Positions 6,075 to 9,702 of a stretch of 43,336 nt of DNA are shown here, one piece after another. Source of the DNA: Hymenobacter sp. (GTDB lineage Bacteria; Bacteroidota; Bacteroidia; Cytophagales; Hymenobacteraceae). The notes under the pieces are model-generated. The model saw only the letters and a list, made by a program, of their open reading frames with translations, made no database searches and was not told the origin of the DNA. How positions within the stretch are numbered: position 1 is the first letter of the stretch; each line of letters starts with the position of its first letter. Both the position numbers and the translations under genes were made by a program. The stretch spans positions 1 through 43,336 of the forward strand of contig JAQBNT010000062.1 of NCBI GenBank assembly GCA_028288445.1. Reading direction: 5' to 3'.

Positions 6075-7385
6075 ATGGCTGATACCTCTCTGCCCATCGA
6101 TTACCAGGCCCTGTTCCAGGCCCTCCCCGGCTCCTACCTGCTGCTGGCCCCCGATGGCACCGTGCTCGATAACTCCGACCAGCACGTGGGCGTGTCGCTC
6201 CGCACCCGGGAGCAGGCCGTGGGCCGCAATATTTTCGACGCCTACCCTTCGGCTCCCGAAAGCCAGCGCGACCTGGCCGCCTCGCACGAGCAGGTGCGCC
6301 GCACGTTGCGCCCCGACATTATGCCCCTGCTGCGCTACGACCTGGAACGTCCCGCCGAGCAAGGCGGCGGCATCGAGGAGCGGTACTGGCAAGTCACCCA
6401 CTTTCCCCTGCTCGATGCCCGGGGCCAGCTGCAGTACATCCTGCAAATGCCGCAGGATGTGACCGCCGCCCACCGCGCCAACCGCGCCGCCGCCGAAGCC
6501 CAGCAGGCCCTCGACGAATCGCAGCAGCGCACTGCGTTTATTCTCGAAAGCCTGCCCGTGCTGGTCTGGACCAACCGCCCCGACGGCACCCCCGACTACT
6601 TCAACAACCGCTGGCTGGAGTTCACGGGCAAAACCCAGCAGGAGATGCAGGCCATCGACTGGACCGAAATCACCCACCCCGACGACCGGCCCGGCCTGCT
6701 GGCGGGCTGGGCCACGGCCCTGGCTGACGGTGCCCCCTTCCAGTACGAATACCGCCTGCGCCGCCACGACGGCCAATACCGCTGGCTGCTCATCCGCAAC
6801 TCGCCCCGGCGCGACGCCGCCGGCCACATCACCATGTGGGTAGGCGCGGCCAACGACATCCACGAGCAGCGCCAGATGGTGCAGGAGCTGCTGCACGCCA
6901 ACGAGCACCAGGCCGCCCTCTCCGAGCAGGCCTACCAGCAGTACCAGAAGGCCGAAAGTCAGCGCGAAACCTACGAAAACCTGTTTGCCCAGGCTCCGGC
7001 CCTCATCTGCATCCTGCGCGGGCCGGCGCACCAATACGAGTTCGTGAACCCGCGCTACCAGCAGCTGTTCCCGCACCGCCAACTGGTGGGCCTCCCCGTG
7101 GCCGACGCCCTGCCCGAACTCAAAGACCAGGGCATTATTCCGCTCCTGGATAACGTGTACCAGACCGGCGAAACCTTCGAAGCGCACGAGTTGCCCCTGC
7201 AGCTCGTGCGCGACGCCAGCGGCGAGCTGCGCACCGATTACTTCAACTTCACCTACCAGCAGTTCCGCGAAAACGGCCAGCCCGCCGGCATCATGGTCTT
7301 TGCCTACGAGGTTTCTGACCTCGTGCGTGCCCGCCAGGTGCTGGAAAAGCTCCGCGATGCCGGCCCCGATGCCCCATTGGCCTGA
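6075..7385 (+). CDS. triple-PAS sensory protein without output domain (copy 1)
   Basis: Predicted cytosolic sensor of 436 residues, with no signal peptide or membrane segment. Three PAS domains lie at about 8-130, 153-262 and 302-425. The second is the PAS_3 type, with HPDD, YRLRRHDGQYRWLL and the exit GAANDIHEQRQ. A helical coiled linker (about 262-300, rich in Q/E/A) joins PAS2 to PAS3. In related Hymenobacter sensors such PAS strings lead into HisKA/HATPase; here the protein ends about 10 residues after PAS3 with no kinase, cyclase or HTH. The ATG at 6075 matches the start of the paralogue at 7975. It is followed 101 bp later by the CZB-like gene, and both are duplicated immediately downstream. 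It probably signals by protein-protein contact. Confidence 0.85.
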   Translation: MADTSLPIDYQALFQALPGSYLLLAPDGTVLDNSDQHVGVSLRTREQAVGRNIFDAYPSAPESQRDLAASHEQVRRTLRPDIMPLLRYDLERPAEQGGGIEERYWQVTHFPLLDARGQLQYILQMPQDVTAAHRANRAAAEAQQALDESQQRTAFILESLPVLVWTNRPDGTPDYFNNRWLEFTGKTQQEMQAIDWTEITHPDDRPGLLAGWATALADGAPFQYEYRLRRHDGQYRWLLIRNSPRRDAAGHITMWVGAANDIHEQRQMVQELLHANEHQAALSEQAYQQYQKAESQRETYENLFAQAPALICILRGPAHQYEFVNPRYQQLFPHRQLVGLPVADALPELKDQGIIPLLDNVYQTGETFEAHELPLQLVRDASGELRTDYFNFTYQQFRENGQPAGIMVFAYEVSDLVRARQVLEKLRDAGPDAPLA

Positions 7386-7486
7386 TTTGTGGTAGGCCGC
7401 CCGCAACCATTGTAGCGGTTGGCGGCTCCTCATTCGCCACTCCCCGGCCCTGTGGCCACCCTTCTATTCGTTCTATACCCTCCTAT

Positions 7487-7846
7487 ATGCCTCTTACTTC
7501 GTTCGACTTTCAGCAGGCCCGCGTGAAGCAGGTGCTCTTTAAGTCGCGGCTGCGCTCCGTGCTCTACGGCGTGCGAGAGGCCGAAGCCAGCCTCTTTTCG
7601 CCCCAGGAAAACCCGCTGGGCCAGTGGCTGCAAACGGTGCTCCAGCCCCAGCACGGCACCCACCCCGAGGTGCGCGAGCTCGACCGCACCGTGCAGCAGA
7701 TGCTGCGCACCGGCCAGGACCTGGCCACCCGCTACCAGCGCGGCCACATCGAGGAAGCCCGCACCGGCCTCGACCAAATCAACTCCTTTGCCGACCGCAT
7801 CGAAAACCTGCTCCTTTCGCTGGAACGCGGCCTGGCCGTGGCCTAA
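7487..7846 (+). CDS. CZB-like small protein lacking zinc ligands (copy 1)
   Basis: Soluble all-helical protein of 119 residues. Its layout matches the chemoreceptor zinc-binding (CZB) domain: an FK-x-RLR-x3-YG helix, then LGQWL, then LDRT...GQDLA, then a C-terminal helix with LDQIN. The four residues that bind zinc in CZB domains are all replaced: Q15 for the first His, N42 for the Cys before LGxW, and V69 and L73 for the two remaining His. If the alignment holds, this is a CZB fold turned into a zinc-independent partner or sensor. It follows the triple-PAS gene in both copies of the module, so the two products probably act together. The CZB relation rests on motif comparison by eye. Confidence 0.75.
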   Translation: MPLTSFDFQQARVKQVLFKSRLRSVLYGVREAEASLFSPQENPLGQWLQTVLQPQHGTHPEVRELDRTVQQMLRTGQDLATRYQRGHIEEARTGLDQINSFADRIENLLLSLERGLAVA

Positions 7847-7856
7847 ACTCGCCTAC

Positions 7857-7887
7857 CGGCCGGCTTTGCGCAATGCGGAGCCGGCCG
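7857..7887. terminator. hairpin terminator between the two PAS/CZB-like modules
   Basis: A 9-bp GC-rich stem (7857-7865 with 7879-7887) with a 13-base loop starts 10 bp after the stop of the first CZB-like gene and is followed by TACTTTT. It suggests the two copies of the module are separate transcription units. Confidence 0.6.
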
Positions 7888-7974
7888 TACTTTTAAGGCC
7901 CCCAAGGCCCCGGTGCCGGGCTGCCGGCCCTTTCTGCTTGTATTGTATTGCGTTTCGTTTCCCCGTTTGACAAC

Positions 7975-9300
7975 ATGACTGCTTTCGTTGCCACCCCCGA
8001 TTATCAGCGCCTGTTTCGCTCCCTGCCCGAAAACCTGCTGCTGATGATGCCCGATGCCACCATCGTCGACAACACCGACGGCCACGTGGAAGCATCCCTC
8101 AAGCCCCGGGCCGAGGTGGTGGGCAAAACGCTGTTCGAAGCCTTCCCGTCGGTAGACCAGAACGAGGGCGACGTCATTTTCCAGTCGCACGAGCATGTGC
8201 GCCAGCACCACGCGCCGCACACCATGCCCCTCATTCGCTACGACCTGGCCGTGCCGGCCGAGCAGGGCGGCGGCTTCGAGGAAATGTACTGGCAGGCCAC
8301 CCACTACCCCATCCTGAACGAGCAGGGCGAGCTGGAGTACATCCTGCAACGCACCCAGAACGTGACCGAGGCGCACCGCGCCGCCCTGCGCGCCGCCCAG
8401 GTGCAGCGCGACCTCGACGAAGCCCAGGACCGCACCCGCTTCATCCTCGAAAACCTGCCCGTCCTCATCTGGACGGCCACCGCCGACGGCCACCGCGACT
8501 ACTTCAACTCCCGCTGGCTCAGCTTCACCGGCAAGCCATTGGAAGAGCAAACCGGCCTGCAATGGGCCGACAGCCTGCACGAGGAAGACCGCGCCCGCGT
8601 GCTCGAATCCTGGAAGCACTCCACCGAAACCGGCGACATGTACCAGGTGGAATACCGCCTGCGCCGCCACGACGGCCAGTACCGCTGGATTCTGGTGCGC
8701 GCCGTGCCCCGCCGCGCCGCCGACGGCCACATCACCATGTGGGTGGGCGGGGCCACCGACATCCACGAGCAGCGCCAGATGGTGCAGGAGCTCCTCACCG
8801 CCAACGAGCACCAGGCCACCCTCTCCGAGCAGGCCTACCAGATGTACCAGAAGGCCGAAGGCCAGCGCGAAACCTACGAAAGCCTGTTCACGCAGGCCCC
8901 GGCCATGATTTGCATTCTGCGCGGGGCCGAGCACCGCTACGAATTCGTGAACCCGGCCTACCAGCAGCTCTTCCCGCACCGCCAGCTGGTGGGCCGCACC
9001 GTGCCCGAAACCGTGCCCGAAGTCAAAGACCAGGGCATCATCGACATCTTGGATAAGGTGTACCGCACCGGCGAAACCTTCTACGGCAACGAGCTGCTGA
9101 TGCAGTTGGAGCGCGATGCCAGCGGCACGCTGAAAGACACGTATTTGAACTTCATCTACCAGCAGTTCCGCGAAAACGGCCAGCCGGCCGGCATCATGGT
9201 CTTCGCTTTTGAAGTAACCGACCTGGTGAAGGCCCGCAAAGCCCTGGAACAGGTGCGCGACGCCGCCGCCGATGCCCTCGGCACTGTCACAGCCGGCTAA
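7975..9300 (+). CDS. triple-PAS sensory protein without output domain (copy 2)
   Basis: Close paralogue of the protein at 6075-7385, with the same order of three PAS domains (about 8-130, 155-265, 305-430) in 441 residues and again no kinase, GGDEF or DNA-binding domain. Long stretches are near-identical, especially the PAS2 core YRLRRHDGQYRW, the linker EQRQMVQELL and the PAS3 segment QFRENGQPAGIMVFA. PAS1 is the most divergent part, for example MMPDATIVDNTDGHVEAS against LAPDGTVLDNSDQHVGVS, consistent with the copies sensing different inputs. The ATG at 7975 aligns with the copy-1 start; an upstream TTG at 7948 is less likely. The second CZB-like gene follows 51 bp later. Confidence 0.85.
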   Translation: MTAFVATPDYQRLFRSLPENLLLMMPDATIVDNTDGHVEASLKPRAEVVGKTLFEAFPSVDQNEGDVIFQSHEHVRQHHAPHTMPLIRYDLAVPAEQGGGFEEMYWQATHYPILNEQGELEYILQRTQNVTEAHRAALRAAQVQRDLDEAQDRTRFILENLPVLIWTATADGHRDYFNSRWLSFTGKPLEEQTGLQWADSLHEEDRARVLESWKHSTETGDMYQVEYRLRRHDGQYRWILVRAVPRRAADGHITMWVGGATDIHEQRQMVQELLTANEHQATLSEQAYQMYQKAEGQRETYESLFTQAPAMICILRGAEHRYEFVNPAYQQLFPHRQLVGRTVPETVPEVKDQGIIDILDKVYRTGETFYGNELLMQLERDASGTLKDTYLNFIYQQFRENGQPAGIMVFAFEVTDLVKARKALEQVRDAAADALGTVTAG

Positions 9301-9308
9301 AACCGGCG

Positions 9309-9316
9309 TATCTTTG
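9309..9316 (+). promoter_or_regulatory. -7 box upstream of CZB-like copy 2
   Basis: TATCTTTG fits the Bacteroidota -7 consensus TAnnTTTG and lies 35 bp before the second CZB-like ATG. The small gene may therefore be expressed independently as well as with its PAS partner. No good -33 TTG is visible at the expected distance. Confidence 0.5.
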
Positions 9317-9351
9317 CGGTCAGTTCTGCTCGACTTTTTTAAGCCCCCAGC

Positions 9352-9702
9352 ATGCCACTCTCTTCTTTCGACTTTCAGCAAGCCCGCGTGAAGCAGGTGC
9401 TGTTTAAGTCGCGGCTGCGCTCGGTGCTCTACGGCGTGCGCGAAGCCGAGCCAGCCCTGTTTTCCCTCACCGAGAACCCGCTGGGCCAGTGGATTCAAAC
9501 CGTGCTCAAGCCCCAGGCTGGCGGCCAGCCCGCCGTGCGCGAGCTGGAGCACGTCCTCCAACGCATGCTCAGCACCGGCCAGGATTTGGCCACCCGCTAC
9601 CAGCGCGGCCACCTCGAAGAAGCCCGCGCCGGCCTCGACCAGGTCAACGCCTTCTCCGACCAGATTGAAACCCTGCTCACCAGCCTGGAACGCGCCGCGT
9701 AG
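9352..9702 (+). CDS. CZB-like small protein lacking zinc ligands (copy 2)
   Basis: Paralogue of the protein at 7487-7846, 116 residues; the first 33 residues differ at only one position. The CZB-type framework (FKSRLRSVLYG, NPLGQW, TGQDLATRYQRGH, GLDQVN) is kept, and the same four zinc-ligand positions are again non-ligands (Q15, N42, L69, L73). Loss of ligands in both copies, with the rest strongly conserved, argues for selection on a non-zinc function rather than decay. The differences cluster in the loop around residues 34-70. The gene ends 20 bp before a strong palindromic terminator shared with tatD. Confidence 0.75.
   Translation: MPLSSFDFQQARVKQVLFKSRLRSVLYGVREAEPALFSLTENPLGQWIQTVLKPQAGGQPAVRELEHVLQRMLSTGQDLATRYQRGHLEEARAGLDQVNAFSDQIETLLTSLERAA

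Follow-up and report, generated by a model that had tools for sequence, protein, structure and literature searches.

What does a string of sensory PAS domains do when no output domain follows it in the same protein? This question is raised by a locus in a 43,336-nucleotide stretch of Hymenobacter sp. DNA (assembly GCA_028288445.1, contig JAQBNT010000062.1; hereafter the window), one contig of a 311-contig genome. Between positions 6075 and 9702, a gene for a triple-PAS protein and a gene for a small protein occur twice, head to tail and all on the forward strand: PAS-A (6075-7385, 436 residues), small-A (7487-7846, 119 residues), PAS-B (7975-9300, 441 residues) and small-B (9352-9702, 116 residues). 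Both PAS proteins lack an output domain, and both small proteins are homologues of the CZB domain without its zinc site. With about even confidence, we read the locus as a duplicated sensor cassette, made up of two proteins and no kinase, which would act in trans, likely on a separate histidine kinase. An initial annotation of this DNA had described the same arrangement, with a hairpin between the copies, and the open reading frames (ORFs) and an alignment of the copies agree with it. It had also proposed that the output was moved to the small CZB-like protein; this was not borne out, and probably inverts the actual relation. The named relatives found for this locus come from Hymenobacter species, one Hymenobacteraceae metagenome-assembled genome and one Solirubrum.

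Based on a Pfam scan, PAS models alone exceed the cut-off in PAS-A and PAS-B, and no HisKA or HATPase domain was found after the PAS string in either protein, which sets both apart from PAS sensor histidine kinases. The three PAS domains of PAS-A lie at about residues 8-135, 151-268 and 299-420. Its AlphaFold model shows three PAS folds with long connecting helices (130-159 and 262-305) and a final helix (414-428 of 436), after which the protein ends; with a predicted local distance difference test (pLDDT) of 88.0 and a predicted template modelling score (pTM) of 0.48, the relative placement of the domains is unreliable. A PDB sequence search with PAS-A matched mostly single PAS domains, the best being Rv1364c (6e-18), a match that does not indicate a ligand. 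None of the four proteins matched the PADLOC anti-phage defence profiles at E 0.001. Loss of a kinase through a sequencing frameshift is excluded, as a PAS ORF free of kinase motifs precedes 131 of the 186 CZB-like domains examined (remnants of at least 70 residues counting as PAS ORFs). The same genome also encodes an orphan PAS-string protein of 498 residues (L039:3751-5247, contig C147), with no kinase or CZB-like neighbour in the ORF list.

The CZB-like nature of the small protein, suggested earlier from the sequence, was confirmed. It aligns with 13 CZBs keeping all four zinc ligands (hhalign 99.94%, E 2.9e-37), one of which (L234) exceeds the Pfam CZB cut-off, and with a zinc CZB of its own genome (E 1.6e-12, 34% identity; tblastn 4.7e-15), itself a match to Pfam CZB at 6.4e-6, slightly below the curated cut-off. 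Among relatives in which CZB is fused to other domains, L234 (34.8 bits) and L238 (35.8) lie above this cut-off of 29.4 bits and L235 (27.1) below it. Directly, neither small-A nor small-B matches Pfam CZB (PF13682) at E 1 or reaches its gathering score, and 13 window and Hymenobacter members gave one match (E 0.14). No catalytic family in Pfam matches the small protein above cut-off. The AlphaFold model is a four-helix bundle (pLDDT 93.9, pTM 0.87), which resembles the DgcZ CZB domain (3t9o_B; Z 11.4, rmsd (root-mean-square deviation) 2.6, 114 aligned residues), fold alone being weak evidence for bundles, and the middle domain of DosC (4zvc, 4zvd; Z 13.2, rmsd 2.5, 115 aligned). Many other helical bundles reach Z 10-13 (VIA Z-scores), so these structural matches are not decisive. 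Foldseek returned nothing below E 0.001, and searching PDB sequences with a profile of the small protein brought up no credible relative.

The zinc ligands were read from four alignment columns. The set comprised 186 different CZB-like domains, taken from the window and from loci L045-L143, L174-L193 and L234-L293. Kinases were called by motif, and identical domains were entered once, under the first context met. None of the 131 PAS-linked domains keeps the zinc Cys; 110 have no ligand, 11 have one and 10 have two. The window copies lack all four ligands of the 3 His/1 Cys site of the CZB family. Outside the PAS-linked context, all four ligands are kept in 48 of 55 relatives: in all 20 domains with a kinase gene just downstream, in 12 of 13 fused to PAS and kinase (the exception, L247, is a matched stretch without the first helix), in the one fused to PAS alone, and in 15 of 20 with neither a PAS nor a kinase neighbour. 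Four of the five exceptions in this last group are strays of the Hymenobacter zinc-less group, and the fifth (in L175) keeps two ligands; a single domain at a contig edge keeps none. According to the available text of a CZB survey (PMC8262984), the Cys is approximately 100% conserved. In a tree of 109 rows, zinc and zinc-less forms are split by one branch with a support of 89, which looks like a single loss, kept since. By eye, another standalone CZB-like group in other Bacteroidota (L200, L201, L202 and L211, family f29) seems to have Ser at the zinc Cys position, with the His residues apparently kept.

While the zinc site was lost, helix 1 (residues 7-28) stayed under extreme constraint. Its per-column pairwise identity reaches 0.94 among the 103 PAS-linked proteins of Hymenobacter and 0.83 among the 28 of other genera, compared with 0.71, 0.67 and 0.61 in three zinc CZB sets (18, 12 and 15 proteins); the remaining segments range from 0.26 to 0.63, with no comparable consistent gap between sets. 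In DgcZ, the CZB homodimer interface covers 1,950 square angstroms, 384 of them contributed by residues 1-30, as given in the accessible portion of that survey (PMC8262984). This combination makes a role in docking or dimerisation most likely for the small protein. No conserved His was found: across the 131 proteins, the highest His fraction of any column is 0.21. A histidine phosphotransfer (HPt) bundle would have a comparable shape and size (four helices, about 117 residues), and in L095, L106 and L110 the small gene does follow a kinase and regulator pair, but without a conserved His to phosphorylate and with clear CZB homology this reading is hardly credible and was rejected.

Within the genus, the gene pair is conserved and its members co-occur, as the initial annotation had anticipated. 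A search with small-A matched 119 of 120 Hymenobacter genomes at E 0.001, the distant zinc paralogue included. With the small protein required to match at E 1e-30 and the standalone triple-PAS gene at 1e-130, 105 genomes have both genes, 14 have neither and one (G098) has the small gene alone; G098 is 81% complete in about 720 contigs, and its locus (L022) ends at a contig end after 2,367 bases. Two genomes need comment: G048, scored as lacking the pair, retains a 72-residue C-terminal piece of the small gene at its TonB/TatD locus (L298), with no PAS gene, and in G117 the best PAS match (E 4e-105) is a 1,181-residue kinase and not a standalone gene. On a DNA tree of prfB, one gene standing for the species tree, built from 30 genomes of the 120 (every one of the 14 without the pair and 16 chosen with it), presence or absence of the pair changes 6 times, at least 5 of these changes being forced by starred branches. 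The changes are joint losses of both genes, about six in number.

Such retention bears on the possibility that the cassette is a neutral remnant of a decayed CZB-PAS-kinase. The missing kinase, the missing zinc site and a PAS-B remnant of 84 residues in L067 would all fit decay, but the cassette is conserved across the family, both genes are retained together in the large majority of genomes, and helix 1 is nearly invariant. In addition, when each of the four genes was compared with its orthologues in three relatives, the ratio of nonsynonymous to synonymous substitution (dN/dS) lay between 0.06 and 0.42 in all twelve cases (the PAS genes on their last 1,284 nt), and between the window copies it is 0.57 for the PAS genes and 0.34 for the small genes. 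Given the joint retention and these ratios, the remnant reading was rejected as very improbable.

The two genes are also physically linked. In the 105 genomes with both genes, compared by hand from match positions, the triple-PAS match ends at most 400 bp before a same-strand small gene in 100; in G078, the two are separated by another PAS ORF, which is shorter. Over 124 same-strand pairs, the CZB domain begins a median of 48 bp after the PAS stop codon. The small genes thus do not usually lie away from PAS genes: in 73 of 78 named loci a PAS ORF is directly upstream, which favours the pair. These 73 include L095 and L110, where it is a shorter gene with two PAS domains, L079, where it is broken into two frames, and L076, where it is cut by the contig end. 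A tandem arrangement as in the window occurs in 8 of the 78, plus L067 with its reduced PAS-B. A single small gene comes after two PAS genes in a row, both without a kinase, in L114, L115 and L335.

Of 20 loci chosen from the five other genera sampled in the family (g2-g6), 16 have the PAS-small pair, and every one of these genera is represented among them. Elsewhere in the order, at least 25 of the genomes searched match, and one stretch each from 20 was examined. No separate PAS-small pair is found in these 20 stretches; they hold 13 CZB-PAS-kinase fusions, one CZB-PAS fusion without a kinase and six CZBs without such an upstream neighbour. At the phylum level, matches were found in at least 15 of 395 genomes, including four of the window's own genus; the order- and phylum-level searches scored part of the first-look candidates, so misses are possible. 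In the 13 kinase fusions (L234-L245 and L247, from other Cytophagales families), the CZB domain is N-terminal to multi-PAS HisKA-HATPase proteins. This architecture is not among the seven subgroups named in the available text of the CZB survey (PMC8262984).

These fusions bear directly on the claim that the small protein is the output of the PAS string, acting for example on a diguanylate cyclase or a chemoreceptor. The small gene does occupy the place expected of an output domain, 3' of the PAS gene; elsewhere in bacteria, CZB domains control chemoreceptors and cyclases according to the part of the survey at hand (PMC8262984); and in L110 a CheB-CheR-PAS gene lies upstream of the gene cluster with the small gene. 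In the fused relatives, however, CZB stands at the N-terminal, input side, and the kinase is the output. Moreover, the small protein has lost its zinc ligands, has no conserved His and matches no catalytic family, and the 20 loci from other genera had no GGDEF motif flagged next to them. We therefore regard an output role as rather improbable.

The contexts of the CZB family as a whole point to a kinase as the target of the cassette. In the genome of the window, a zinc CZB gene is followed by a CHASE3-HAMP-HisKA-HATPase gene and a receiver gene (L045:1474-3986, contig C184); the 20 domains with a kinase gene just downstream come from the window's genus (18) and genus g5 (2). In L110 (3035-10357, from H. 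setariae), the row consists of the CheB-CheR-PAS gene, a PAS-HisKA_3 kinase, a LuxR-type regulator, a 2-PAS gene and a zinc-less small gene, a CheB-CheR-PAS gene having been scanned with Pfam in this locus only. L095 (6232-10357) has a HisKA_3 kinase, a LuxR-type regulator, a 2-PAS gene and the small gene, and L106 has a kinase, a regulator and the small gene in a row. In the genomes of L110 and L095, the triple-PAS gene stands alone beside a TonB-receptor-like gene (L331 and L332). An obligatory partnership with the zinc CZB-kinase of the window genome is disfavoured, as three genomes (G006, G017 and G033) have the cassette and, by two profile searches, no zinc paralogue.

A kinase might also be met in another way, with the triple-PAS protein forming mixed oligomers with related PAS-kinases and lowering their activity as a decoy, while the small protein stabilises the triple-PAS protein. 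Four Hymenobacter kinases (L294-L297) have a collinear triple PAS, 43-45% identical to the window PAS proteins (45-48% in a separate comparison), and a kinase of the window genome is 33% identical over residues 4-426. These kinases do not track the cassette, however: G117 has such a kinase without the cassette, and the sole collinear kinase of the window genome among the matches listed is the one at 33%. A decoy or dominant-negative role is thus doubtful, if less so than an output role. As a further observation, L294-L297 are large PAS-kinases in which the domains similar to the window PAS proteins are the first three PAS domains, and by eye L295-L297 lie beside lipoprotein-like and transporter-like genes.

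The presence of two cassettes in the window raises the question of what the second one adds. The copies are in register, with a spacing of 1903 nt between the PAS blocks and 1865 nt between the small genes, and four long blocks are 74-86% identical between them. In the nine tandem loci, PAS-A and PAS-B each form one group with a support of 100/100, indicating one old duplication that has been maintained. In 23 of the 78 named loci, 8 tandem (L067 included) and 15 non-tandem, TatD follows the module on its 3' side within 1 kb; L114 is a 24th, with TatD 5 kb away. As TatD is found beside both kinds of module, the duplication most likely happened in place. Divergence between the copies had been placed mainly in PAS1, and this proved correct, with PAS2 close behind. 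Across the nine loci, identity between copies A and B is 0.58 in PAS1, 0.57 in PAS2 and 0.72 in PAS3, against orthologue identities (for A and B, respectively) of 0.87/0.82, 0.74/0.75 and 0.71/0.79. PAS3 and the linker preceding it are barely more divergent between copies than between species, which is compatible with shared downstream contacts or with gene conversion.

The copies are separated by a terminator-like hairpin on the forward strand (7857-7887; 14 pairs and a weak T tract), the longest of 14 such sites in the window (6.4 expected). Upstream of small-B, TATCTTTG (9309-9316, forward strand) fits TAnnTTTG, which we take to be the Bacteroidota -7 box, and is a possible promoter of small-B alone. 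This motif shows no excess over chance in the window (9 found, 8.9 expected), and in the PAS-to-small gaps of relatives it occurs in 10 of 124, compared with 1.6 in shuffled gaps.

Taken together, the PAS string would be the sensory input of the cassette. The small protein would most likely be a CZB bundle without a zinc site that serves as a docking or dimerisation partner and is no longer a zinc or redox sensor. Acting jointly in trans, the two proteins would most likely tune a histidine kinase encoded by another gene, much as CZB and PAS would do for the kinase inside the single-chain fusions of other Cytophagales. With similar C-terminal PAS domains and linkers and differing PAS1 (and PAS2), the two cassettes of the window might provide two input specificities that share one type of downstream contact. 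More tentatively, and with less confidence than for the locus itself, such cassettes may be detachable throughout the family: a CZB adaptor without zinc sensing would couple interchangeable PAS inputs in trans to histidine kinases, and duplication with divergence of PAS1 would add inputs without new kinases.

Several observations weigh against this reading. No kinase adjoins the cassette of the window, and none was seen beside most other cassettes; the CheB-CheR gene of L110 may instead reflect a chemosensory link. The L294-L297 kinases, those closest to the triple PAS, showed no CZB, so that an origin by the splitting of one fusion protein is a conjecture. Zinc loss and PAS pairing coincide in one clade and count as one evolutionary event, not 131. 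In four genomes (G071, G087, G091 and G108), the triple-PAS and small genes are unlinked. There, the triple-PAS genes still adjoin a TonB-receptor-like gene, no small gene follows in the stretches read (the contig of G108 ends about 500 bases on), and by coordinates the small genes are those of L110, L095, L106 and L116. Small genes also occur without a PAS gene: L074, L106, L119 and L143 have no PAS ORF upstream (the fifth such named locus, L116, is at a contig edge), and L336 is a stray small gene in G084, a genome that also has linked pairs. The accession prefixes of L074, L119 and L143 are shared with L142, L129 and L122, which are loci with both genes. Finally, the tree of small-A and small-B (119 columns) does not resolve a matching of partners within copies, and in L067 small-B is intact beside the 84-residue PAS-B remnant.

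In chemoreceptors and cyclases, the established role of CZB domains is to sense zinc and redox state. DosC of E. coli is a larger protein with globin and cyclase domains, and its CZB-like domain is not known to bind zinc. This middle domain (Pfam DosC_2nd, 'CZB-like') is among the best structural matches of the small protein, but sits inside a larger protein, whereas the small protein stands on its own, with a PAS protein as its probable partner by gene neighbourhood and co-occurrence. With the CZB domains of DgcZ and TlpD/McpA, the small protein shares a homologous bundle and a conserved helix 1, and with the CZB-only subgroup, 27.1% of 10,140 sequences, it shares the standalone form, as far as the available text of the survey goes (PMC8262984). 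Unlike the CZBs covered there, the window proteins lack the four zinc ligands and are paired with a separate PAS gene; none of the seven subgroups named in that text is a histidine kinase or has a PAS partner gene (PMC8262984). Within the open-licence literature, titles and abstract openings yielded nothing on the PAS/small pair, on zinc-less CZB partners or on CZB-kinases.

A PAS-only protein with a separately encoded partner is also found in Campylobacter jejuni, where, in the accessible part of the source, CetA works with CetB/CetC (Aer1/Aer2) (PMC9665402). The Cet partner is described there as a chemoreceptor (Tlp9), while the cassette has three PAS domains and a zinc-less CZB bundle as the partner (PMC9665402). 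Neither Pfam nor the predicted fold gives a chemoreceptor signalling domain in the small proteins of 116-119 residues, which distinguishes them from the CetAB partner. To our knowledge, short LOV proteins have no dedicated partner gene. As here, they have a PAS-type sensor without an obvious signal transduction domain, although, in the portion of the paper available, they consist of a LOV element only and not of a triple PAS (PMC4416707). Close in content, too, are the CZB-PASn-histidine kinases (L234-L245), which combine the same two domain families in one chain but differ in having intact zinc ligands, an N-terminal CZB and a kinase. The cassette thus presents a version of CZB without the known zinc ligands, confined to one tree group and mostly beside an output-less PAS protein, and is a tangible system in which to study the action in trans of PAS proteins that have no output. 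Seen alongside the CZB-PAS-kinase fusions of related families, it suggests a place for CZB bundles in two-component signalling too.

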